A stretch of 38,150 nt of DNA, taken from positions 1-38,150 of IMG/VR virus record IMGVR_UViG_3300006080_000006; one strand, 5' to 3'. The notes under the pieces are model-generated. The model searched no databases, was not told the origin of the DNA, and saw nothing but the letters and a program-made list of their open reading frames with translations. The position numbers and the translations under genes are program-made. Origin of the DNA: a virus. Below are positions 3,778 through 35,414 of this stretch, piece by piece. The first letter of the stretch is position 1. Each line of letters begins with the position of its first letter.

Positions 3778-4581
3778 ATGTACTACAGAAGGGGCTTTTA
3801 CCCGAGGCCAGGCCAGGCGGATGTGCCAGACGATCTTTGGGCGGAGTTCCAGAGAATCAGGGGGCACCTGTCCAGGGTTGACCAAAACAACATAGAGAGC
3901 TTTTCCCTCGCCAGGAGCGACATAGCTCTTCCGGACACGCCAGACCATGCTGGATTGTCTGACATCGTTGGCGTTGACGGCGAGTTCCTGCATAAGGAGC
4001 TTACGTTTCAGGGCAGCGACCTTGTTGAGATCGGTCGTGTGGCGAACTTTGATCTCGAGGGGCGATGGTTTGACCTTGGGGGCAAGGGCGCGCTTCTGCG
4101 CGGACACTCGAGGGGCGACGCTCCCTGGATTGTCGCAGCGTCAATAGACTTTTCAGCCCGAGACAGAGAGCTCTCTTCACCGTTGGGCACCATTGCAACC
4201 TCAACCGAAGGTCCGAATACAACCGACTCGTCCTTCGGCTCCGGCCACTATACGCCCACGAGCTCGGTCACCGGCACCATCGACAATATGGAAACCTGGA
4301 CAAGCGCGGAGATTATAGATTCGTCTATTACGCGGGTGAACGTTCGGCTTCGCATTAAAACCAAAGAGGGCCTTTCTGCGGCTGAGGCCGTTGGCGGGGC
4401 AGATAACTACTCCGATGGCGGGTCTCTTGCCGTGGTGACCTGTTCGTTTTCCGGGGGTGGTCCGGTTGAGTTTTCGCCAGTAATAAAAGTTGACGAGAAC
4501 AAGTTTGGGGCGCTCAATAAAGATGGCTGGGCCTGCACCATCCACAGGGTGAACATCTTTGCGTTTGGGCTGTATAAGTAA
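3778..4581 (+). CDS. Fibre- or spike-like structural protein, member 1 of 3
   Basis: A 267-residue protein starting at the ATG immediately after the preceding stop. Residues 20-50 form a helical segment (FQRIRGHLSRVDQNNIESFS) followed by a short linker and a beta-rich C-terminal body with many Thr, Ser and Gly residues. The same plan, an N-terminal helix and then a beta body, recurs in the next two genes. This suggests trimeric virion appendages with a shared attachment segment. Host-receptor binding is an inference from plan and position only. Confidence 0.6.
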   Translation: MYYRRGFYPRPGQADVPDDLWAEFQRIRGHLSRVDQNNIESFSLARSDIALPDTPDHAGLSDIVGVDGEFLHKELTFQGSDLVEIGRVANFDLEGRWFDLGGKGALLRGHSRGDAPWIVAASIDFSARDRELSSPLGTIATSTEGPNTTDSSFGSGHYTPTSSVTGTIDNMETWTSAEIIDSSITRVNVRLRIKTKEGLSAAEAVGGADNYSDGGSLAVVTCSFSGGGPVEFSPVIKVDENKFGALNKDGWACTIHRVNIFAFGLYK

Positions 4582-5276
4582 TGCCTATTCAGGTTTATTC
4601 GGCTGACCTTCGGGTGAAAGACGGCGAGGTTATGAGCTCGTCGGACGTGAAGGACAACTTCCAAAACGTCCAGGACGCCGCCAACTCACTCGACTGGATG
4701 AACGTGGAGGACGGGTCTCTTGACCAGTTTCACTTAAAGATTGGCGAGCCTCTTAAAGGGGTTAGGGGGAGGTTTCGTAAGAACGGCCAACCGCCTGGTG
4801 GTTACCAGTCCTGGCACACCCTGGTAGGAATTAACCCGGAGGTTCAGGAGGGGTCTGCTGTCTATGCGTTTGGCAACGTCACGTTCGACCGGCTGAACTC
4901 TGTGGGCACGGCCAGGGAGAATCTCCTCCCATCACCTTCGGATCAAAGGCCAGACACCCTTAAAACAGAGATAAGGATCTCCGCCCCATACACAGAAAGA
5001 ACCCACTACCACGCATACTGCCCCGCCGTTTATGGGCAAGCTGGGATAGTTCATGCGTACCGTGTAACGTCTCAAATGTTGCAAAACCCTGCAGCTGGCG
5101 GTGCCGCGCATAGCGTAAACTTTGACATTAAGTGTGTGGGAGGTCCACACCCTTACGCAGCCGGCCTGACTCATGCGGCGCTCATCTTCGGCACTCACTA
5201 CCCTGGAGAGTTCTATGATGACCAAGTGAAGATGGGTGTAATGGCTAACTTTGTTGTGTTTGTGATTGACCGATGA
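4581..5276 (+). CDS. Fibre- or spike-like structural protein, member 2 of 3
   Basis: A 231-residue protein whose ATG overlaps the TAA of member 1. Its N-terminal helix (VKDNFQNVQDAANSLDWMNV) and a following LDQFHLK resemble the opening of member 1, and a GRFRKNGQPP turn resembles QSFRKNGTT in member 3. The rest is predicted beta structure with aromatic residues. There is no clear Shine-Dalgarno site, so coupling to the upstream gene is likely. A second copy of an appendage or adaptor protein is the best guess. Confidence 0.6.
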   Translation: MPIQVYSADLRVKDGEVMSSSDVKDNFQNVQDAANSLDWMNVEDGSLDQFHLKIGEPLKGVRGRFRKNGQPPGGYQSWHTLVGINPEVQEGSAVYAFGNVTFDRLNSVGTARENLLPSPSDQRPDTLKTEIRISAPYTERTHYHAYCPAVYGQAGIVHAYRVTSQMLQNPAAGGAAHSVNFDIKCVGGPHPYAAGLTHAALIFGTHYPGEFYDDQVKMGVMANFVVFVIDR

Positions 5277-6918: not shown

Positions 6919-7877
6919 TGGCTAGCGACCCACGTGTGCTCCCTGGTGGGCTGAGTGTAACTCAGGAAGAACTACGGAGAAAGAGGCGGAAGGACCGCGA
7001 TCTCGCTCGCGAGGCCCGGTGGAACCAGCCCATGTTTGCCGAGGAACTCGGCCCGTCGCTGTCTGGCATCCAGATAGAGGAGGAGGCGCCAGGGCCCTCC
7101 CCGTTCAAGCCGCTTCCGTCGCTTGGTATGGGGCCAGTAAAGGATCTCCAGTACGATTCGCCGTTTAAGCAGGACTTTTTTGGCCTAAGGGGAGAGATCG
7201 ACGCACTAGGGTCGGTGGGCTTGGTCGACCCGAAGAACTTCGACACCGGCTCAATGTTTGGTGGGGTGCTTCCCGGTGGCGAGCTCAGCCTGCCGCCACT
7301 CACCGGAATGGTCGGGAAAACAGGCGGTCTAGCGCCGCCTCTTCCGGAGTTCAACCCAGGCATCCTTGGCGGCGTTGGCACGGCTGCTGGCATTGGGGCT
7401 GGGCTTCTTGGCACAGCTCTGTCGGCAAAGAAGGCGGCTGGTTCAGCAGCCCTGAGCATGAGTCCCAGCGAGTGGCACGCAAGGCGTACAGACCCGTCCC
7501 TTCACGAGATTGACCGCCAAGCGCTTGGTACGGTTGACGCGGCTAGGCGCGGTGCCGAAATGGAGGGGGGGAAGGCTATCGCCGCAAACATTGCGGGAGG
7601 CTCTGGCTGGCTTGGGGAGCGGGCCGGAAGGTCTTTGTCAGACTCCTTTGGTCGAGCTGCCACCTTCGCACAGCAACAAGCGAACCTGCGAAAGGCGAAG
7701 GTGCGGGATGAGAACGAAGAAGAGCGCGTGCGAAGGGTCGCCCTACGGAAAGCCCAACCAGGGCAGGCTGGCAAGGCTCTCTCCGGCCTAGTTGGGCTTA
7801 TTCCTGGCCCTGCCGGCAAAATCGGGCAACTGATTACTGGGCTTGGCAGCAAGGCCATTTCTTCGGCCATCACTTAG
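6918..7877 (+). CDS. Internal virion / ejection protein candidate with Gly-zipper segment
   Basis: A 319-residue protein whose ATG overlaps the preceding TGA. It has a basic N-terminus (RRKRRKDRD), a Pro/Gly-rich linker carrying the FGLRGEIDALG motif near residue 90, a small-residue hydrophobic stretch around residues 147-168 (GILGGVGTAAGIGAGLLGTA) and a second small-residue hydrophobic stretch near the C-terminus. This resembles T7 gp14-type ejection proteins, which enter the cell envelope, although no homology is proven. It is followed by two much larger helical proteins, as in podoviral ejection-protein sets. Confidence 0.6.
   Translation: MASDPRVLPGGLSVTQEELRRKRRKDRDLAREARWNQPMFAEELGPSLSGIQIEEEAPGPSPFKPLPSLGMGPVKDLQYDSPFKQDFFGLRGEIDALGSVGLVDPKNFDTGSMFGGVLPGGELSLPPLTGMVGKTGGLAPPLPEFNPGILGGVGTAAGIGAGLLGTALSAKKAAGSAALSMSPSEWHARRTDPSLHEIDRQALGTVDAARRGAEMEGGKAIAANIAGGSGWLGERAGRSLSDSFGRAATFAQQQANLRKAKVRDENEEERVRRVALRKAQPGQAGKALSGLVGLIPGPAGKIGQLITGLGSKAISSAIT
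7179..7210 (+). repeat. Direct repeat copy 2 (FGLRGEID-coding segment)
   Basis: Partner of 6853-6884 with one mismatch in 32 bases; it encodes FGLRGEIDALG in the following gene. Confidence 0.85.
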
Positions 7878-7889
7878 AGGATTTTCAGT

Positions 7890-10094
7890 ATGGCTAGCAA
7901 CAAGTTGTTTCCGGCAGGCGACCCACGCGCATCGTTGATTTACGCGCACTCCATGGCACCGCTAGCTGAAATCCCCGGAGATGTGTTCGAGGGCATCATG
8001 CAGTCGCGTGAGCAGACACGTCTTGAGGAGGCGCGAAGAGACCAGGAGCGAGCCCGACGAGAGGGGAGAAGAAAGACCAGAAGGACTGAGTTCCTCGAGT
8101 CGGTTGCTGCCGCAGAGGGTGTGCCCGCGACAGCTCAGACAGCCACTACGACCGCAGGTAAAAGGGGCGTAGCTCCAGCTGCTGCTGGCCCAACGTACAC
8201 GACCACCACGGGTCCTGGGGGCCATGAGATGGTTGCCGGGATGGAGTTTGGTCCCGGCAAGGGCAGTCCGGAGGACATCACCCTGGATAGCGTAAGGCCG
8301 TCTCGTGAGGCGACTGTAAGTGGCCTTGAGGAGCGAAGAAAGGCTGGTCATCTCCTGGAGCAGCTCGGGCGCTTCACGGAGCGCAGCCGGGGAGCAGACC
8401 CAACGATTCAAGAGCGCGCCGAGGAAATCGTTCGCGGCTATGGGCTTGACTCACAAAACGCGACAGAGGTTGCTGTGCGCGAGAGTCTCGGGGAGCCGAC
8501 TCCTGCTTTCGACAAGCTAGTGTCGAAGAAGGCAGAGAAGGGGGGCTTTGTCAGCCCGGTGGCAAAGGAGCGAGTGAGAAGGGTCGACCCCGAGGGAGGG
8601 TTCGGGCCAAGCTCAGGCGGAAGGGGGGTTTCCTTTATGGAGCAGGCTCCCACGAAGAAGGGGACGTTCCAGCGTGCTATGGACGCCCCAGAGCAGCCGT
8701 ATGGAGACCCCTATCTTACCCCAATGGCATCTGCGTACAGGGAGAGCTCTCAGGCCATGATGGTAAACGCCATGCTTGAGGGCGACTACCTGGGAGACCA
8801 GACCCCCGAGAGGACAAGGCAGGCCAGGGCCTACGAGAGGTTTGTGACGGAGCTTGGCGACGAGGAGGCAGCAGAGGAACTGAAGCGCGTTCGCAAGATT
8901 GCCTGGGCCCAACAGGCGCGGGAGAAGAAGAAGTTCATGGCTGCAATGGTGCCCAGCCTGAGGAAGGTCAAGATACCCAACCCAGAGGCGGTGGCAGAGC
9001 TCTATTGGGACAACCCAGAGCAGGGCAAGGAAGTGTACAAACAAGCAGAGTCTGCCTATCGACAGGTGCTGGCTAATTACCCACGGGTGCGAGAGGAGGA
9101 CGAGAAGAGGAAGCGCGCCAAGAGTTTGGGTGAGGGAGTGGAGACCAGCATCAGGAGCAGGGCGAGGACCGACCTAATAGAATCCCACAAGAGGGTGCTC
9201 GGGCTAACCAACGATCAGATGGCCGGCATCAAGGAAGATGCCTCGGAAATCGACGCTTTCGAGAGAGGCATCATCTCCCGTCAACCCACGACGGTAGATG
9301 TAACAGGCAAAGACCTCGACGCGCGCGCGAGGTCTCTTCGTGATGACAGGTCTGGGAATGTCTCTGAAGAAGACAAGGAGGCTCTCCGTGAAAGCCGGGA
9401 CAGGCGCAAACTGCTTGACCAGAGGAGGCTTAACCTGGCTATCGACCAAGCGCTTCTTGTCGCGGAAACCGCCTCCCTCAAGGCGGGGGATCAGCAGGTC
9501 GCATTCGATGTCGTCGTTGACGGGAAAACGTACAAGAGAGACGCCCTTTCTGCGGGCGGACAGCTCAGCTTTAACCTTGTGGGGCTTGACAAGCAAAACG
9601 CCGCCACCGTCTACGGCGGGGCTCAGTATGTGAGCTCAACGGCGACCGCAGCGGCCCGAGGCGGGGCCACTGAAGACAGGGCCTACACTTTCCCGCGCTC
9701 AGTCGTTAGCAAACCAGCGCCGCCCCCGAAGACTACCCGTCCAACGGGCGCTGACGTGAACAGCCTGGCAAGGCTTCTCACGGCTCATGGATACAACCAG
9801 GAGGACGCCGAAGCATCTGCGGCAAGTGCGAGCGCCAACCCGGAGTTCTTCTGGAGCCAGGTGGACACACTCAGGAAGAAGAAGAAGGATGGCAATGAGG
9901 AGATTTCTACTGGATTTGAGGAGGGCGAGAAGGAGGTAAGGGACGAGGACATTTACCTCGAGGGCTCCGAGTCCAGGGCCTGGGATGAAGGCTGGAGGAA
10001 GAAGGTAGAGGAGCCTGGTGACGCTGGTGGTTGGAAGCACGAAGGCGAGGGAATATCGTCGAGCCACGCAGCCATACTCGAATCCTACAAATAA
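7890..10094 (+). CDS. Internal virion protein candidate, helical and highly charged
   Basis: A 734-residue protein with a purine-rich ribosome site (AGAGGA) overlapping the previous stop. It is dominated by Glu, Arg, Lys and Ala with several probable coiled-coil stretches (residues 35-60 and 300-400 are clear) and has no enzyme motif. Near residues 535-600 there is a more beta-like patch, and the last 60 residues are acidic and Trp-containing. Size, composition and position before the 1900-residue protein fit the middle member (T7 gp15-like) of a three-protein ejection set. The assignment is positional. Confidence 0.6.
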   Translation: MASNKLFPAGDPRASLIYAHSMAPLAEIPGDVFEGIMQSREQTRLEEARRDQERARREGRRKTRRTEFLESVAAAEGVPATAQTATTTAGKRGVAPAAAGPTYTTTTGPGGHEMVAGMEFGPGKGSPEDITLDSVRPSREATVSGLEERRKAGHLLEQLGRFTERSRGADPTIQERAEEIVRGYGLDSQNATEVAVRESLGEPTPAFDKLVSKKAEKGGFVSPVAKERVRRVDPEGGFGPSSGGRGVSFMEQAPTKKGTFQRAMDAPEQPYGDPYLTPMASAYRESSQAMMVNAMLEGDYLGDQTPERTRQARAYERFVTELGDEEAAEELKRVRKIAWAQQAREKKKFMAAMVPSLRKVKIPNPEAVAELYWDNPEQGKEVYKQAESAYRQVLANYPRVREEDEKRKRAKSLGEGVETSIRSRARTDLIESHKRVLGLTNDQMAGIKEDASEIDAFERGIISRQPTTVDVTGKDLDARARSLRDDRSGNVSEEDKEALRESRDRRKLLDQRRLNLAIDQALLVAETASLKAGDQQVAFDVVVDGKTYKRDALSAGGQLSFNLVGLDKQNAATVYGGAQYVSSTATAAARGGATEDRAYTFPRSVVSKPAPPPKTTRPTGADVNSLARLLTAHGYNQEDAEASAASASANPEFFWSQVDTLRKKKKDGNEEISTGFEEGEKEVRDEDIYLEGSESRAWDEGWRKKVEEPGDAGGWKHEGEGISSSHAAILESYK

Positions 10095-27333: not shown

Positions 27334-27687
27334 TCACCCCTCTCCTGCAATAATCTTCATGGCTCGAGATTGAGGCGACTCTATCCCCCTAGCCCTTCTC
27401 GCCATAGACACCGCCTGCCTGCTGACCCCAAGGGCCTCGGCCACCCGAGCGTCCGACCACTGGCCGAGCATTGGGTGGTAGCAAGTCCGCTTCTTTCGAC
27501 CCCTGGTGTCAATGGGCGGGTTTCTTGTGTCGACCCCGAAGCGCCGAAGAGCCTTGAGTACGGTTATCGCGGACACCCCCCACTTCACAGCCAGCGCCTT
27601 TGCTGAGCCCTCGCTTTGGTAGTCAGACAGGAACTCGTCCCGCCTGTTTTCTGGTATGGCCGGTGGCCGGCCTCTTCCGTTAGACAT
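27334..27687 (-). CDS. Helix-turn-helix DNA-binding protein
   Basis: A 117-residue basic protein. It starts with an AT-hook-like GRGRP and carries two possible helix-turn-helix units, near residues 28-50 (AKALAVKWGVSAITVLKALR) and 77-98 (DARVAEALGVSRQAVSMARR). The second matches a motif common in phage regulatory and endonuclease-associated proteins. Its ATG overlaps the end of the DpdA-like gene by 8 bases, so it is expressed with the DNA-modification genes. Confidence 0.68.
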   Translation of the reverse strand: MSNGRGRPPAIPENRRDEFLSDYQSEGSAKALAVKWGVSAITVLKALRRFGVDTRNPPIDTRGRKKRTCYHPMLGQWSDARVAEALGVSRQAVSMARRARGIESPQSRAMKIIAGEG

Positions 27688-28327
27688 CTTTCAGTCCTCC
27701 TTCTTCCTGTGTTGTTTGTTTGCTCCAAAAGTGACCTTGTCTTCGACCAAGGTCTAAACCTCTAAGTGTTTTCCTGAACCTGGTGGGGCTGGATCCGTCG
27801 AAACTGTCGGCTCCCGAGTCCTGGCAGAGATTGATTCTCTTTACGCTGTTCACCCGAGCTACATGGAAATAGCAACCGAGCTCCCTCGCCAGCTCGCCCC
27901 ACATCGACATGGTCTCCAACTTCCAGTCGGTTGAGCCGCCAAGGAAAAGGCCTACCTGCTCCGAGACCATGGACCGAACGTCGTCCGCAACCATCCCGTC
28001 CTGAACAGGGAGGAGCATTGGCCTGCCGATGGACTCGAGCCTCGGCAACCAGGACGCAGACATCTTGAGAGACTTGAGCCCTCCGCCAACAATGTCTGGA
28101 AGGACTATCCAGTCAGCGTTTGGCCCGTGGTCCTGCAGCACACGCTCAAAGCCCGACACGTCGAACGGCACGCCCCTTGTGTGACACCCCCAAGCGCCGT
28201 TATCGAGCCCGTATGGGAGCGGGGATGGTGTTCGGTAGTTCTGGCTGGGCTCGATGATGAACCTCCACCTAGCCACCCTAAGGGCCTCGAGGGTGAGCCC
28301 TGAGCAGCGGGAGGTGTACGCAAGCAT
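27680..28327 (-). CDS. dpdA: DNA 7-deazaguanine transglycosylase (DpdA-like, TGT fold)
   Basis: A 215-residue protein from ATG 28327 (TGATG overlap with the cupin stop). It has the ordered TGT-superfamily active-site positions: LDNGAWG (Asp42), PDIVGGG (Asp78), PVQDGM (Gln109), LFLGGST (Gly130-131) and SFDGSSPTRF, where Asp177 fits the catalytic nucleophile of the FDCVxPTR motif. TGT enzymes swap guanine for preQ bases in tRNA; phage DpdA members do this in DNA. The QueC gene two places upstream supports the DNA role. It is shorter than tRNA TGT, as phage DpdA proteins often are. Substrate base is inferred. Confidence 0.8.
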   Translation of the reverse strand: MLAYTSRCSGLTLEALRVARWRFIIEPSQNYRTPSPLPYGLDNGAWGCHTRGVPFDVSGFERVLQDHGPNADWIVLPDIVGGGLKSLKMSASWLPRLESIGRPMLLPVQDGMVADDVRSMVSEQVGLFLGGSTDWKLETMSMWGELARELGCYFHVARVNSVKRINLCQDSGADSFDGSSPTRFRKTLRGLDLGRRQGHFWSKQTTQEEGGLKDV

Positions 28328-28668
28328 CACCTCGACACCCCCGCCCAGGACCACTCCCTGCGATGCGGCCCCCTGACGCACAATGTCAGGCACCCCCGTC
28401 GACCCACCCGCAGGCTGTGGACAGAAGACGCCTTTCGGAACGACACCGACCGGGCTGTCCGGTATGAAGCCGCTCCCTTTCTGGCCTCCGAGTACCCGCC
28501 AGAGAGAACCACCGTCAGGAAGTCCCACGGGTGGTCGTGCCCCTGAATCTCCGCCTTTGGGGAGAACCGATGCAGGTATACGCCGAGCGGGCGGGACTCA
28601 AGGAACACCAGGCGCTCCATGCTGGGGCAGTCTGACCGCTCAGTGGGGAATATGGGTCGCCACCTCAT
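28327..28668 (-). CDS. Cupin-fold protein in the deazaguanine cluster
   Basis: A 113-residue protein from ATG 28668, which overlaps the QueC stop (ATGA); its own stop overlaps the DpdA-like start. It has a cupin metal site pattern: GHDHPWDF (His44 and His46, with Asp49 nearby), a GGYSE segment and a later VHSL (His84), then CVRGPHRREW. Small cupins bind metal and can be oxygenases, isomerases or binding proteins. Tight coupling between QueC and DpdA suggests work on preQ0 or on the modified base. The reaction is unknown. Confidence 0.7.
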   Translation of the reverse strand: MRWRPIFPTERSDCPSMERLVFLESRPLGVYLHRFSPKAEIQGHDHPWDFLTVVLSGGYSEARKGAASYRTARSVSFRKASSVHSLRVGRRGCLTLCVRGPHRREWSWAGVSR

Positions 28669-29291
28669 CGCGCCATCCCCGCCGCTCGAGCCAGGCACGC
28701 GCCGCACTCTCGGCAGGGTGTTTCGCCGCCGGCATAGCAACTCCACGACATGGTTACCAAGTTGGTCGCCCCCAGCTCAGCTCCCAACTCAACGACCTCC
28801 TTCTTGGTCATGCTGATCAACGGGGTGTGGATTTTTATTCGGAGCTCGCCTTCCATCGACCTGAAGAATCCAGGACGACAGTCCTCAAAAACCTCATGAT
28901 CGTCGGCGCATGCCCCAAACACCAAGGCGTCGGGAAGCTTTGGTTCGTGTTCAAGTGCGGCGGCAACCAAAAGGGCTCGGTTTCGACCACCAACCACAAC
29001 GCAGGAACCAGACAACCCCCCCTCGTTTCCGAGAAGGGAGCTGTCGCTCGGGTTCCAGTCGCCCACGCCGCCCGTGATGTCGTAAACAGTCAGACTGACC
29101 CTTGCCGTGGAGGCGATCCTCTTTGCGGCGTCGATCTCCTGGCTGGCGTGCAGTTGTCCGTAGTCAAAACAGACAGCGTCAACCACGTTCTCGTATCGAC
29201 CGTGGTTGCGAATCGCCCACGCAAGGCAGACTGCGGAGTCCATTCCCCCAGACAAAAGGACCCGTATTCTCTTGGGGTAGATCTTCTTCAT
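28665..29291 (-). CDS. queC: QueC, 7-cyano-7-deazaguanine (preQ0) synthase
   Basis: A 208-residue enzyme. It has the PP-loop SGGMDS (14-19), FDYGQLHASQEI (42-53), GGRNRALL (101-108) and a C-terminal zinc site SCYAGG...CRECGAC with Cys185, 193, 196 and 199. QueC turns 7-carboxy-7-deazaguanine into preQ0 with ATP and ammonia. It overlaps both neighbours by 4 bases, showing an operon with the methyltransferase and the cupin. No QueD, QueE or GTP cyclohydrolase is in the window, so earlier steps come from the host or from genes elsewhere. Slightly shorter than bacterial QueC. Confidence 0.9.
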   Translation of the reverse strand: MKKIYPKRIRVLLSGGMDSAVCLAWAIRNHGRYENVVDAVCFDYGQLHASQEIDAAKRIASTARVSLTVYDITGGVGDWNPSDSSLLGNEGGLSGSCVVVGGRNRALLVAAALEHEPKLPDALVFGACADDHEVFEDCRPGFFRSMEGELRIKIHTPLISMTKKEVVELGAELGATNLVTMSWSCYAGGETPCRECGACLARAAGMAR

Positions 29292-30796
29292 TGATTGGCC
29301 TTTCCTGCTTTCGCAATTTGTTCTGCAATCCGCTGCGCCACAATTGGCGTGACTGCGTTTCCTGCTTGTCGGTACCTGCTCTGCTTGGACCCCTGGAATG
29401 GGTGCCCATCAGGAAAATCCATCAGGCGGGCACACTCCTCGACTGTTAGGCGGCGGCGCCCCGTGGCTAGCCAGAGCGTGTCTGACGCCCTCGCCGGCCC
29501 ACCCTGAGCCGTCCACCCAGTAGACTCCTTCCCGTTGGTGCCCTTGTACTCCGTAGCGCTGACCAGGGCGCTGGGCCTGTCCAGGAGTTCGGGGTGCTCG
29601 CCCTTCCGCCACTTAGCCCTCAGCGCCAGTGACGTTCCCTGACAGGCACGCACCGTTGGGCTGGGCTCGTCTATCGAGCGAGCCCCCTGGTTGCCCCCGG
29701 TCTTCCCCCCGTCGTTGAGGCCGGTGACAACCTCAATCCATGGCCCTGCATTCCCTATCTGGGAAGCGGCGATGGTGGTGCAGGGCTCGTTAGTGATGTC
29801 GCGGTAACTGCGCTTGTCGGCATCGGCTGAGCTGCGCGGGTTGGTTCCGCCGCCGATCACCCGAAGAAGCATCCCGTTGCCGACAACCCGAAGCATCTGG
29901 TTGCCGTTGCCGACAACCCGAAGCATCTGGTTGCCCTTGCCGTTGACCGTGGGTGCTGGCTCGTTGAGCGTGTGCGGCCTTTCCTGGTTTGGGTTGTTGT
30001 CGCTGTTGCGGCCACCGTCGAGCTGGACCTCGTCCCACCCATACAGTCCGCCGAGAGCATTGCCCCCAGCCACGGGTTGGCACGACGGGGTGTCCGCACT
30101 CTTCGGCACGCCAGCGACCCCATTCCCGCTCCGCCCTGTTGCGGTACCCCAAGCAGCCAGCCCAAGGGCCTGGCGCACCGTATTCCATGGCTTCAGCCCT
30201 GGGGCGAAGAGGTCTTCCTGCGTCTTGTTCGGGTTGCCGTGTGTCGGCTCGGGCCACTTGATGGGGCGTGGCCCGCCCACCAGGAAGACACGGCGCCTTC
30301 TCTGCGGCACCCCGAAGTCTGCCGAGTCAAGCACCCTCCAGCCCACCCAATCAAAGTGCTTCTCCAGGTTCTTCAGGATCACTTGGTGGAAGTAGGCGTT
30401 CGGGCAGAGAGGCGTCCCTATGCAGGTCTTCCCGCCCTTACACGCCCCCTTGTGGTTGGTGAGACCGACCACGTTCTCCCCCACAAACCAAGTGGGTCCG
30501 GTGAAGTCGATAGCGGCCTCGGTTGCAGGCCACATGTTCCTCTCGTCTTGGGCACCCTTCCTCTTCCCCGCCGTGGACCAGGCCTGACAGGGGAACGAGG
30601 ACCACAGGAGGTCTGGGGCCATGCCCACGTATAGGGAAAGGTCCCTAACGTCTCCTCGCACGGCTGGGAGCCCCGCAGCCTCAAGTGTGGCGCAGGCGTC
30701 CTCGTCCCACTCCACGCAGGCCAGGTGCTCAAAGCCAGCAGCCTCGAGGCCGAGAGCTGCGCCCCCTGCCCCAGCAAATAGTTCAAGTGTTTTCAT
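29288..30796 (-). CDS. C5-cytosine DNA methyltransferase with repeat-rich recognition domain
   Basis: A 502-residue enzyme with the classic motifs: I LELFAGAGGAALGL (4-17), IV FPCQAW with catalytic Cys70, VI ENV (107-109), VIII QRRRR (165-169) and X GNAVTPIVAQ (479-488). It methylates cytosine at position 5 using S-adenosylmethionine. A Cys-containing insert lies near 119-131. Residues 230-440 form an unusually long recognition region with several copies of a (N/D)EPxPTV-like phrase and a tandem 10-residue repeat. It starts the leftward segment leading to QueC and the DpdA-like enzyme. GGAAGGAG lies upstream. Confidence 0.93.
   Translation of the reverse strand: MKTLELFAGAGGAALGLEAAGFEHLACVEWDEDACATLEAAGLPAVRGDVRDLSLYVGMAPDLLWSSFPCQAWSTAGKRKGAQDERNMWPATEAAIDFTGPTWFVGENVVGLTNHKGACKGGKTCIGTPLCPNAYFHQVILKNLEKHFDWVGWRVLDSADFGVPQRRRRVFLVGGPRPIKWPEPTHGNPNKTQEDLFAPGLKPWNTVRQALGLAAWGTATGRSGNGVAGVPKSADTPSCQPVAGGNALGGLYGWDEVQLDGGRNSDNNPNQERPHTLNEPAPTVNGKGNQMLRVVGNGNQMLRVVGNGMLLRVIGGGTNPRSSADADKRSYRDITNEPCTTIAASQIGNAGPWIEVVTGLNDGGKTGGNQGARSIDEPSPTVRACQGTSLALRAKWRKGEHPELLDRPSALVSATEYKGTNGKESTGWTAQGGPARASDTLWLATGRRRLTVEECARLMDFPDGHPFQGSKQSRYRQAGNAVTPIVAQRIAEQIAKAGKANQ
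29875..29934 (-). repeat. Perfect 30-bp tandem repeat in methyltransferase gene
   Basis: 29875-29904 and 29905-29934 are identical and in frame, encoding two copies of NQMLRVVGNG; a diverged copy precedes at 29851-29880. Copy-number change would keep the frame. Confidence 0.9.
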
Positions 30797-31017
30797 TTTC
30801 CTTCTCCTTCCTTGTGCCGCTTGATTGCGGCGCTAGACGTTTGCCTTAGGCACCTAGCCATCAGGGCGAACTCCGAAATAAGGGACACCATCTCGAACTT
30901 GGTTGCTTCCCCCTCTTCTCCGAGCAGGGCGATAACATCCGAACAGGCCGAGTCGACCGCCTCTGCGAACGTGTCTGCCTGACACGCCACCAGATAAAGT
31001 TCGCTTACCTCCTTCAT
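30793..31017 (-). CDS. Small hypothetical acidic helical protein
   Basis: A 74-residue protein from ATG 31017, with GGAGGAGGA directly upstream and 4-base overlaps on both sides. Predicted all-helical (ADTFAEAVDSACSDVIALLG, FALMARCLRQT). It is not recognised; coupling to the methyltransferase start is the only functional hint. Confidence 0.6.
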   Translation of the reverse strand: MKEVSELYLVACQADTFAEAVDSACSDVIALLGEEGEATKFEMVSLISEFALMARCLRQTSSAAIKRHKEGEGK

Positions 31018-31307
31018 TCCTCCTCCTTCCATTTTGGGCAGTCAGAGTTGACTCCAGACTCTATGCCTGGACACACGCCGCCCAACTTATCTCCAGGGCA
31101 CCAGGGCTCCTCCTCGATGAGGTCGCCCCCTCCTTCCTTCTTCCCAGCCTCAAAGCCTAGGCTCCACGCCCGCTCAATCAAATCGCACACCTCGCGAGCG
31201 GCTTCGCTTCCGGTAAGGGCCGCTATTCCAATCTTGCCGGGAACCGCCTCCATCCACTCAGGCAGTAGTTCGTCAAGGGGATGCTTGGGTTCCGCTGTCT
31301 TGCTCAT
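31014..31307 (-). CDS. Small hypothetical protein
   Basis: A 97-residue protein with the recurrent AGGAAGGAGAGAG ribosome site before ATG 31307. The first 60 residues are helical and the acidic end carries a CPGDKLGGVCPG and a later Cys that might bind metal. It is not recognised. It belongs to the run of small early-type genes on this strand. Confidence 0.6.
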   Translation of the reverse strand: MSKTAEPKHPLDELLPEWMEAVPGKIGIAALTGSEAAREVCDLIERAWSLGFEAGKKEGGGDLIEEEPWCPGDKLGGVCPGIESGVNSDCPKWKEEE

Positions 31308-34285: not shown

Positions 34286-35140
34286 TTAGGCCACAATACG
34301 CAGCCACCCACTCGCCAGTTCGCCCCTCTGAACGAACCCAGTAGTGTCCCTTGTAGCCGGCCCCTTGGCGTGCAGAATCACCCAGTGCCCAGGTGGATCC
34401 CAGAACCGAATGTCGTCCTCGTCGCCAGAGACGACAGGGAACCCATTCCAGACCCCGGCCTCGACAATCTGTCTGGACGCTTCCTTCGCAGTCGTCCTTG
34501 TCATGCCAGTGGCTGTCTGCACCACAGCCGCAGCGTTGTGCCCTGCCTCGAGGTAACGCAGCGCCCTCCCCATAGACTCCGGGTCCTCGCTGAGACTGAA
34601 CGTCAGGTTGTAGTTCGGCGGAGTCCTCCGCCTCTCAAGAGGCACCTTCGTGTAGTCGTACCAGTAGATGTCCTGGAACTCGTCGATGACTCCGGACCTC
34701 TCCCATAGGATGTCACTCGTACCGTTCAGCCTGACCGCAGGCTTCATGCCCTTGATCTTCGCCAAGTACACGTGCTGGTGGAGTTCCATCCTGAGCTGCT
34801 CCATGAAGTCCTCTCGGAAGAGGTGATAGAACAGCGTCTTGCTGACTCGAGCAGTCCTCGCCATGTTCGTCACCAGTTGACCAGTCGTCTTGATGCAGAC
34901 ATCGGCGCAGCTGGTGGCGAACGGACATGTGTTGAACCCAGACTCGATTGCCGGCGCCAAGTGCATCACCGCAGTCAGGACTCCTTGACCCTCACCCTTC
35001 ATGCACTTGAAGTTCTTGCCGAACAACTGACGAAGACTTCCTGTCTTCGTGTACCTCAGCCGGTCCCTCAGGTTCGCGTCATCCGGGTCCAGGCCGATTG
35101 ACCTGATTCCTTCACGCACTCTCTCGTTTTCGATCCCCAT
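34286..35140 (-). CDS. Conserved phage protein, TIM-barrel-like, Cys-containing
   Basis: A 284-residue protein from ATG 35140 (GGAAGGAG upstream), preferred to the longer frame that overlaps the gene before it. A Cys cluster NTCPFATSCADVC lies near residue 82. Strand-like conserved blocks follow: AVRLNGTSDILWE, IYWYDYTKVP, NLTFSLSEDPE, VSGDEDDIRF and WVILHAKGPA. The block order looks like a barrel fold and I recall the set from phage proteins of unknown function. The enzyme role is not known; Cys may bind metal. Confidence 0.7.
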   Translation of the reverse strand: MGIENERVREGIRSIGLDPDDANLRDRLRYTKTGSLRQLFGKNFKCMKGEGQGVLTAVMHLAPAIESGFNTCPFATSCADVCIKTTGQLVTNMARTARVSKTLFYHLFREDFMEQLRMELHQHVYLAKIKGMKPAVRLNGTSDILWERSGVIDEFQDIYWYDYTKVPLERRRTPPNYNLTFSLSEDPESMGRALRYLEAGHNAAAVVQTATGMTRTTAKEASRQIVEAGVWNGFPVVSGDEDDIRFWDPPGHWVILHAKGPATRDTTGFVQRGELASGWLRIVA

Positions 35141-35414
35141 CGCTTTCTCCTTCCAAAGTGTCAATACAATCGGGGCAAACCCCGCCTTCCATGTGCTCTT
35201 TGAACGTCCACTCCTTGCAGACAGGGCAGCACACATCTCCCATTTCCAAGCACCCGAGACAGGTTCCTTCCTCCAAGTCGTCGGGGGCCTTCGGTTTCTC
35301 ACATCTCTCACACTCTTCGCAGTCACACTGCACCGTGCCGCTAGCGTGGCACCTCCCTCCGCACTCCGAGCATGTGCCGTAGTAGTTCCCCCAACTAGGG
35401 GATAGGTTGCTCAC
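35112..35414 (-). CDS. Zinc-binding small protein, multiple Cys pairs
   Basis: A 100-residue protein starting at GTG 35414 (GTG 35417 is an alternative), in a GTGA overlap with the stop of the preceding gene. Cys pairs CSEC, CDCEEC, CLGC, CPVC and CPDC mark several zinc ribbons. The end overlaps the next gene start by 29 bases. Likely a protein- or nucleic-acid-binding adaptor; target unknown. Confidence 0.65.
   Translation of the reverse strand: MSNLSPSWGNYYGTCSECGGRCHASGTVQCDCEECERCEKPKAPDDLEEGTCLGCLEMGDVCCPVCKEWTFKEHMEGGVCPDCIDTLEGESDGDRKRESA

Follow-up and report, generated by a model that had tools for sequence, protein, structure and literature searches.

A compact DpdA-like protein encoded with QueC in a viral operon: a candidate host-assisted 7-deazaguanine DNA modification system

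The stretch of viral DNA analysed here, IMG/VR virus record IMGVR_UViG_3300006080_000006 (38,150 bases; hereafter the window), carries four overlapping minus-strand genes at 27680-30796 that encode a cytosine-C5 methyltransferase, a QueC, a small cupin and a compact protein related to DpdA and to tRNA-guanine transglycosylase (TGT). We refer to the subfamily of this last protein, whose members have about 205-215 amino acids, as mini-DpdA. Our verdict is that mini-DpdA is a real, compact DpdA variant within a host-assisted modification operon. The best explanation of the operon, and one that we consider probable, is host-assisted modification of the phage DNA with a 7-deazaguanine (preQ0 or 7-amido-7-deazaguanine, ADG) together with cytosine-C5 methylation. 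The four genes are as follows.

29288-30796, minus strand: C5-methyltransferase, 502 amino acids (PF00145 2.2e-53; phrog_116 3.5e-73; TIGR00675 159 bits; motifs)
28665-29291, minus strand: QueC (PF06508 121 bits, cut-off 22; PDB QueC 3bl5 4e-18; motifs)
28327-28668, minus strand: small cupin, 113 amino acids, with a likely three-histidine metal site (phrog_4786 3.3e-19; invariant histidines)
27680-28327, minus strand: mini-DpdA, putative base-exchange barrel of the TGT/DpdA superfamily, 215 amino acids (phrog_15826; alignment; AlphaFold model; viral structure matches)

Open reading frame coordinates bear out the arrangement of four overlapping genes that a first-pass annotation had described: the methyltransferase and QueC genes share 4 nucleotides, the QueC and cupin genes 4, and the cupin and mini-DpdA genes 1.

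Mini-DpdA as a divergent relative of TGT and DpdA

The only family matched by mini-DpdA was phrog_15826 (function unknown; E 1e-40). Pfam, NCBIfam and PADLOC gave no match to any DpdA or TGT model, and sequence searches of the PDB with the protein or its profile returned nothing useful. Its relationships were read from conserved residues, predicted structure and gene neighbourhood. Across 27 aligned sequences, residues D42, G44, D78, Q109, G130-G131, H155 and D177 are invariant. A block alignment that took in the DpdA of Enterobacteria phage 9g, two environmental DpdA1 proteins, two actinophage DpdAs and Escherichia coli TGT matched mini-DpdA block by block in the known TGT order (DNGAW/DSGAF, PDIVGG/LDVIGD, LGGST/LGGLV, FHVARVN/VHGFGIT and SFDGSS/SCDSSS, the second of each pair being the DpdA/TGT side); as aligned automatically, the groups are offset by 1 or 2 columns in the last block. 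The catalytic aspartate pair thus corresponds to D42 and D177 in mini-DpdA, D72 and D215 in 9g DpdA, and D89 and D264 in E. coli TGT. The ordered TGT-like residues noticed in the first-pass annotation, including FDGSSPTRF, are real, and at the key positions the 27 sequences vary little or not at all.

One aligned position differs between 9g DpdA and E. coli TGT. His196 is reported to be a conserved DpdA residue that DpdA2 lacks (PMC6884629); we infer that this number is counted along 9g DpdA, whose residue 196 is a histidine. It aligns with the invariant H155 of mini-DpdA, whereas E. coli TGT has a methionine at the same place. This difference bears on a tRNA route, in which QueC would lift host preQ0 and the barrel would act on tRNA (or the phage would raise host tRNA queuosine), aiding translation. 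Such a route would suit the fold of the TGT superfamily, and an increase in queuosine has been suggested for phages that have preQ0 genes and lack DpdA (PMC6884629). Mini-DpdA, however, lacks the zinc motif of TGT (CxCxxC...H; CDCYTC at position 302 in E. coli), having no cysteine after D177, and its chain stops ~38 residues past the presumed nucleophile, so that the C-terminal part of TGT is missing; 9g DpdA likewise shows no TGT zinc motif in the alignment. DNA methyltransferases adjoin mini-DpdA in several relatives, and the window holds no tRNA gene. Together with the histidine at position 155, these features make the tRNA route improbable.

The AlphaFold model of mini-DpdA is a confidently predicted barrel (predicted local distance difference test score, pLDDT, 87). 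When it was compared by Foldseek with a viral structure library, the top match was a marine virus protein (47% identity), followed by many queuine tRNA-ribosyltransferases; the named viral matches were mostly queuine transferases, and the DpdA2 of Vibrio phage nt-1 was matched at E 1.4e-5. The BFVD entry A0A0F7L9Z1, a 499-residue uncultured marine virus protein, combines a mini-DpdA domain (47% identity) with ~290 further residues; it may be a fusion protein and would then reveal a partner of mini-DpdA.

Profile comparison with single DpdA or TGT sequences is weak and served as a rank test only. Among 100 proteins, 9g DpdA, E. coli TGT and the two actinophage DpdAs took ranks 2, 4, 7 and 8, with a family member ahead of them; a hypergeometric calculation puts the chance of four of the five TGT/DpdA proteins standing at these ranks at ~5e-5. 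The pairwise profile comparison between mini-DpdA and DpdA1 was weak (P 2.6e-4). Membership of mini-DpdA in the TGT/DpdA superfamily is thus supported by the alignment, the AlphaFold model, the viral structure matches and the adjacency of preQ0 genes described below. Judged by its sequence, the protein is highly divergent and is not recognisable as DpdA1 or DpdA2, the two subfamilies that the comparison covered.

QueC and the recurrent link to the preQ0 pathway

The QueC and methyltransferase genes both pass curated Pfam cut-offs (for QueC, PF06508 at E 5.7e-35). As the first-pass annotation had reported, QueC has its PP-loop (SGGMDS) and its four-cysteine zinc site (CYAGGETPCRECGAC). It also carries the essential tyrosine after the first zinc cysteine (CY), and has the C(x)7C spacing seen in the Gat-QueC of 9g. 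Its motifs depart from the canonical ones at three places, reading YGQLHASQE (one extra residue compared with YxQxHxxE), VGGRN rather than VPxRN, and FEDC rather than YPDC. In E. coli QueC, the Y131F substitution retains partial activity (PMC13329287). The sister QueCs of relatives L009, L064 and L067 are nearer the canonical motifs and have the canonical YxQxHxxE spacing.

The spacings raise the question of Cap9, a defence paralogue of QueC with the spacing Y/FxQ(x)5E (PMC13329287). Type IV CBASS (cyclic oligonucleotide-based antiphage signalling system) pairs the QueC-like Cap9 with the TGT-family Cap10 for protein modification (PMC11996544), and QueC and the barrel could be a phage version of this pair, or a decoy against it, acting in protein deazaguanylation or counter-defence. 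The window QueC does have Cap9-like YxQ(x)5E and C(x)7C spacing (motifs from PMC13329287). Against this, its PDB match is nearer QueC than Cap9 (4e-18 compared with 1e-6), and it has CY where Cap9 has CE within the motif CE(x)6CxxCxxC. Because the sister QueCs are canonical and 9g Gat-QueC has the same odd spacings, the departures do not make the window protein a Cap9. Mini-DpdA retains the catalytic aspartate positions, and neither mini-DpdA nor ten flanking operon genes had a PADLOC match, where a Cap9 would be expected beside a CD-NTase. The two systems are alike in that QueC-family and TGT-family proteins act jointly on 7-deazaguanine; they differ in that Cap9/Cap10 belongs to bacterial defence, targets a protein N-terminus, and has other motifs and another neighbourhood. 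A QueC tree placed Cap9 on a long branch whose position is unsure. The evidence supports a QueC-like rather than a Cap9- or QatC-like gene, and leaves the protein-modification reading very improbable. Identity with a Cap9/Cap10 or Qat system was rejected, the comparison being made on the Cap9 side with no Cap10 sequence among those compared.

The neighbourhood of the mini-DpdA family was surveyed in 85 non-redundant contigs within a reach of 3.5 kb, many of the loci being partial. QueC lies within reach in 30 contigs and adjoins mini-DpdA in 24 of them; any preQ0 gene lies within reach in 34, directly adjoining in 29. By comparison, a QueC relative is detectable in 269 of 50,697 phage records (0.5%), an approximate background that comes from a different collection and was scored with a QueC profile partly built from this family. 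The association takes several forms. QueC, QueD and QueE all stand beside mini-DpdA in L013 and L080; mini-DpdA occurs in records with FolE, QueE and QueC in L124 and L135, the latter also with QueD; and within reach of mini-DpdA, QueD is found alone in L091 and L113 and QueE alone in L102 and L130. Several neighbours clear the NCBIfam equivalog cut-offs for QueE, QueD and QueC, and the FolE cut-off is also cleared. On the mini-DpdA tree the presence of preQ0 genes switches at least 10 times; a single inherited accident therefore does not explain the link, and the repeated association would be difficult to account for if the enzyme did not use a 7-deazaguanine. A chance pairing of QueC and DpdA was rejected.

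A different DNA modification might still be made if mini-DpdA exchanged another base, or acted on a nucleotide or nucleoside, with QueC serving as a generic PP-loop ATPase. For over half of the family no preQ0 gene is nearby, genes resembling those for 3'-phosphoadenosine-5'-phosphosulfate (PAPS) reductase are frequent (11 of 34 records), and singleton QueC genes were set aside as ambiguous in an earlier survey (PMC6884629). Countering this, QueC, QueD or QueE adjoin family members in many separate lineages, and the window QueC retains the zinc site along with the majority of canonical motifs; it is unlikely to be an unrelated PP-loop ATPase. We accordingly give the alternative little credence. 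The PAPS-reductase-like PP-loop genes, counted among the 34 mini-DpdA records, occur in L010, L012, L015, L016, L017, L033, ReqiPine5 (L004) and the Erythrobacter phages (L002, L005), among others.

The composition of the operon varies between close relatives. In L006 and L007, mini-DpdA is 94% identical to that of the window and the flanks are similar, whereas QueC is 55% and the methyltransferase about 27-29% identical, and there is no cupin; in L008 the methyltransferase is on the opposite side of mini-DpdA. The operon is a moving cassette whose parts are swapped independently, as expected for anti-restriction genes, the anti-restriction purpose itself being our reading. Among published isolates, the Erythrobacter phages ZS04 and R6L have a mini-DpdA of the main clade. 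Mini-DpdA relatives are also found in bacterial genome contigs (L046-L059; Pseudomonas, Thiohalocapsa, Methylobacterium, Micromonospora and others), where they possibly sit in prophages; the copy of Pseudomonas nitroreducens (L051) is broken across two reading frames.

Proposed mechanism and comparison with known systems

According to the proposed mechanism, the operon would make and install 7-deazaguanine in the phage DNA with host help. From its family membership, phage QueC would catalyse an amidation in one or two ATP-dependent steps, giving ADG and/or preQ0. Mini-DpdA, on the strength of its conserved residues, would then swap selected guanines for the 7-deazaguanine base. By analogy with TGT, D177 would attack C1' and guanine would be released, with D42, D78 and the GG loop handling the bases. 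The cupin might act on the base by trimming or oxidising it, either prior to insertion or afterwards, and the C5-methyltransferase would independently place a further mark on cytosine. Escape from host restriction is the likely benefit.

The first-pass annotation had proposed that some guanines are replaced by a preQ0-derived base. The evidence bears this proposal out in part: it supports the membership of mini-DpdA in the TGT/DpdA superfamily and its link to the 7-deazaguanine pathway (9g alignment, structures and gene adjacency), whereas we infer that the enzyme acts on DNA and that the product is preQ0, ADG or another derivative. The annotation was correct that QueC is the only preQ0 gene in the window: QueD, QueE and FolE are absent from it, and also from the further ~9.5 kb by which the nearest long relative, the collinear G003, runs beyond the part matching the right end of the window, neither record being complete. 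The remaining base synthesis is presumably supplied by the host. Such supply has a precedent, because Salmonella phage 7-11 and Pantoea phage MED16 have dpdA without preQ0 genes and carry the deoxy form of ADG, dADG (PMC6884629, PMC8306585); in phage CAjan, DpdA is essential for modification (PMC6884629, PMC8306585). The window resembles these host-dependent phages in its incomplete pathway and presumably host-supplied base, but phages 7-11 and MED16 have dpdA alone, of another subfamily, and no QueC.

The phages that combine DpdA1 with preQ0 synthesis (Enterobacteria phage 9g, Escherichia phage CAjan and Mycobacterium phage Rosebush) likewise encode a DpdA-superfamily enzyme and QueC in one operon, with the same ordered motifs including His196, and 7-deazaguanine in DNA would be the expected product in both cases. 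Unlike mini-DpdA, DpdA1 has ~317 amino acids, and the two show no match at the BLAST or HMM (hidden Markov model) level; the window has one of the four preQ0 genes (QueC) and adds the cupin and C5-methyltransferase to the operon. The DpdA2 of Vibrio phage nt-1 shares with mini-DpdA the structural match given above and neighbours from the preQ0 pathway, but it has 464 amino acids and belongs to the subfamily without His196 (PMC6884629), the equivalent of which mini-DpdA possesses. Actinophage proteins named 'DpdA-like tRNA-guanine transglycosylase' (Aoka, Sonali gp81, Majeke; ReqiPine5 gp03) are of the same family as mini-DpdA, with about 30-33% identity and the same catalytic positions, yet form a separate long-branched clade. 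Searches of the whole genomes of Aoka and ReqiPine5 found no QueC, and we found no report of a functional test of these actinophage proteins.

Several observations weigh against the modification of DNA by mini-DpdA with a host-supplied 7-deazaguanine. The top 50 Foldseek matches in the PDB were generic TIM barrels and not diagnostic, and the structure search alone is thus not decisive. The nt-1 DpdA2 showed no detectable match to the mini-DpdA profile (rank 75 of 100). The window QueC scores 118.6 bits, below the TIGR00364 equivalog cut-off of 150.3 that is passed by those of L124 (198 bits) and L069 (155 bits). No preQ0 gene lies within 3.5 kb of mini-DpdA in 51 of the 85 contigs, though many of these loci are partial. 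Arthrobacter phage Sonali (L152) encodes both a distant mini-DpdA (gp81, 4054-4671; 33% identity) and a classical DpdA (gp87, 7041-7931), the latter accompanied by a full preQ0 set (QueC, QueD, QueE and FolE); the two families may thus not be interchangeable, and the actinophage branch may serve a different purpose. Finally, Mycobacterium phage Orion has dpdA only and no modification.

A DNA-modifying role for mini-DpdA would give a testable function to phrog_15826, which occurs in well above 100 contigs of environmental viruses, and a plausible role to the lone phage QueC genes that the earlier survey had left as ambiguous (PMC6884629). If it is true, phages supplement host metabolism with single preQ0 steps (QueC, QueD or QueE alone) to modify their own DNA, and a minimal transglycosylase of roughly 205 residues would be a compact enzyme possibly useful for base exchange in DNA.

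Methyltransferase, cupin and flanking features

The methyltransferase translation contains the motifs PCQ, ENV and QRRRR. Its long target-recognition region consists of repeated P-x-x-T-V/I modules (EPAPTV, EPCTTI, EPSPTV, RPSALV), and in the window gene a 30-base stretch (GNQMLRVVGN) is duplicated in tandem and in frame at about 29866-29942. The modules and the duplication suggest gain and loss of modules, which could alter specificity.

The cupin was recognised solely by phrog_4786 ('cysteine dioxygenase'), with Pfam matches only below cut-off. Residues H44, H46 and H84 are invariant in four relatives, and the AlphaFold model (pLDDT 35, from four sequences) gives no structural assignment. 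A cupin of the window type is next to mini-DpdA in the window, L008, L009, L034 and L067; a second type stands directly beside mini-DpdA in L023, L025, L026, L031, L077 and L087, with no preQ0 genes in reach. We suggest tentatively, and with more doubt than conviction, that the cupin is a base-tailoring enzyme (e.g. an oxygenase, hydratase or decarboxylase of 7-deazaguanine) and that the DNA of these phages contains a 7-deazaguanine derivative that would be new to DNA.

Two further genes are coupled to the four.

30793-31032, minus strand: 79-residue protein (open reading frame; no Pfam match)
27334-27687, minus strand: small helix-turn-helix protein of the same operon (helix-turn-helix Pfam matches below cut-off)

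The first shares 4 nucleotides with the start of the methyltransferase gene and the second 8 nucleotides with the mini-DpdA gene, so the operon extends beyond these four genes. The helix-turn-helix gene has a counterpart at the same position in L007. No preQ1 riboswitch or other Rfam element was matched in the window, which is an incomplete virus, and a search for the phage host with two proteins gave no informative match. The third codon position has the highest GC content in every operon gene. Farther upstream on the same strand, 34286-35326 encodes a conserved phage protein of the GP88 family (PF17338, 1.6e-32).

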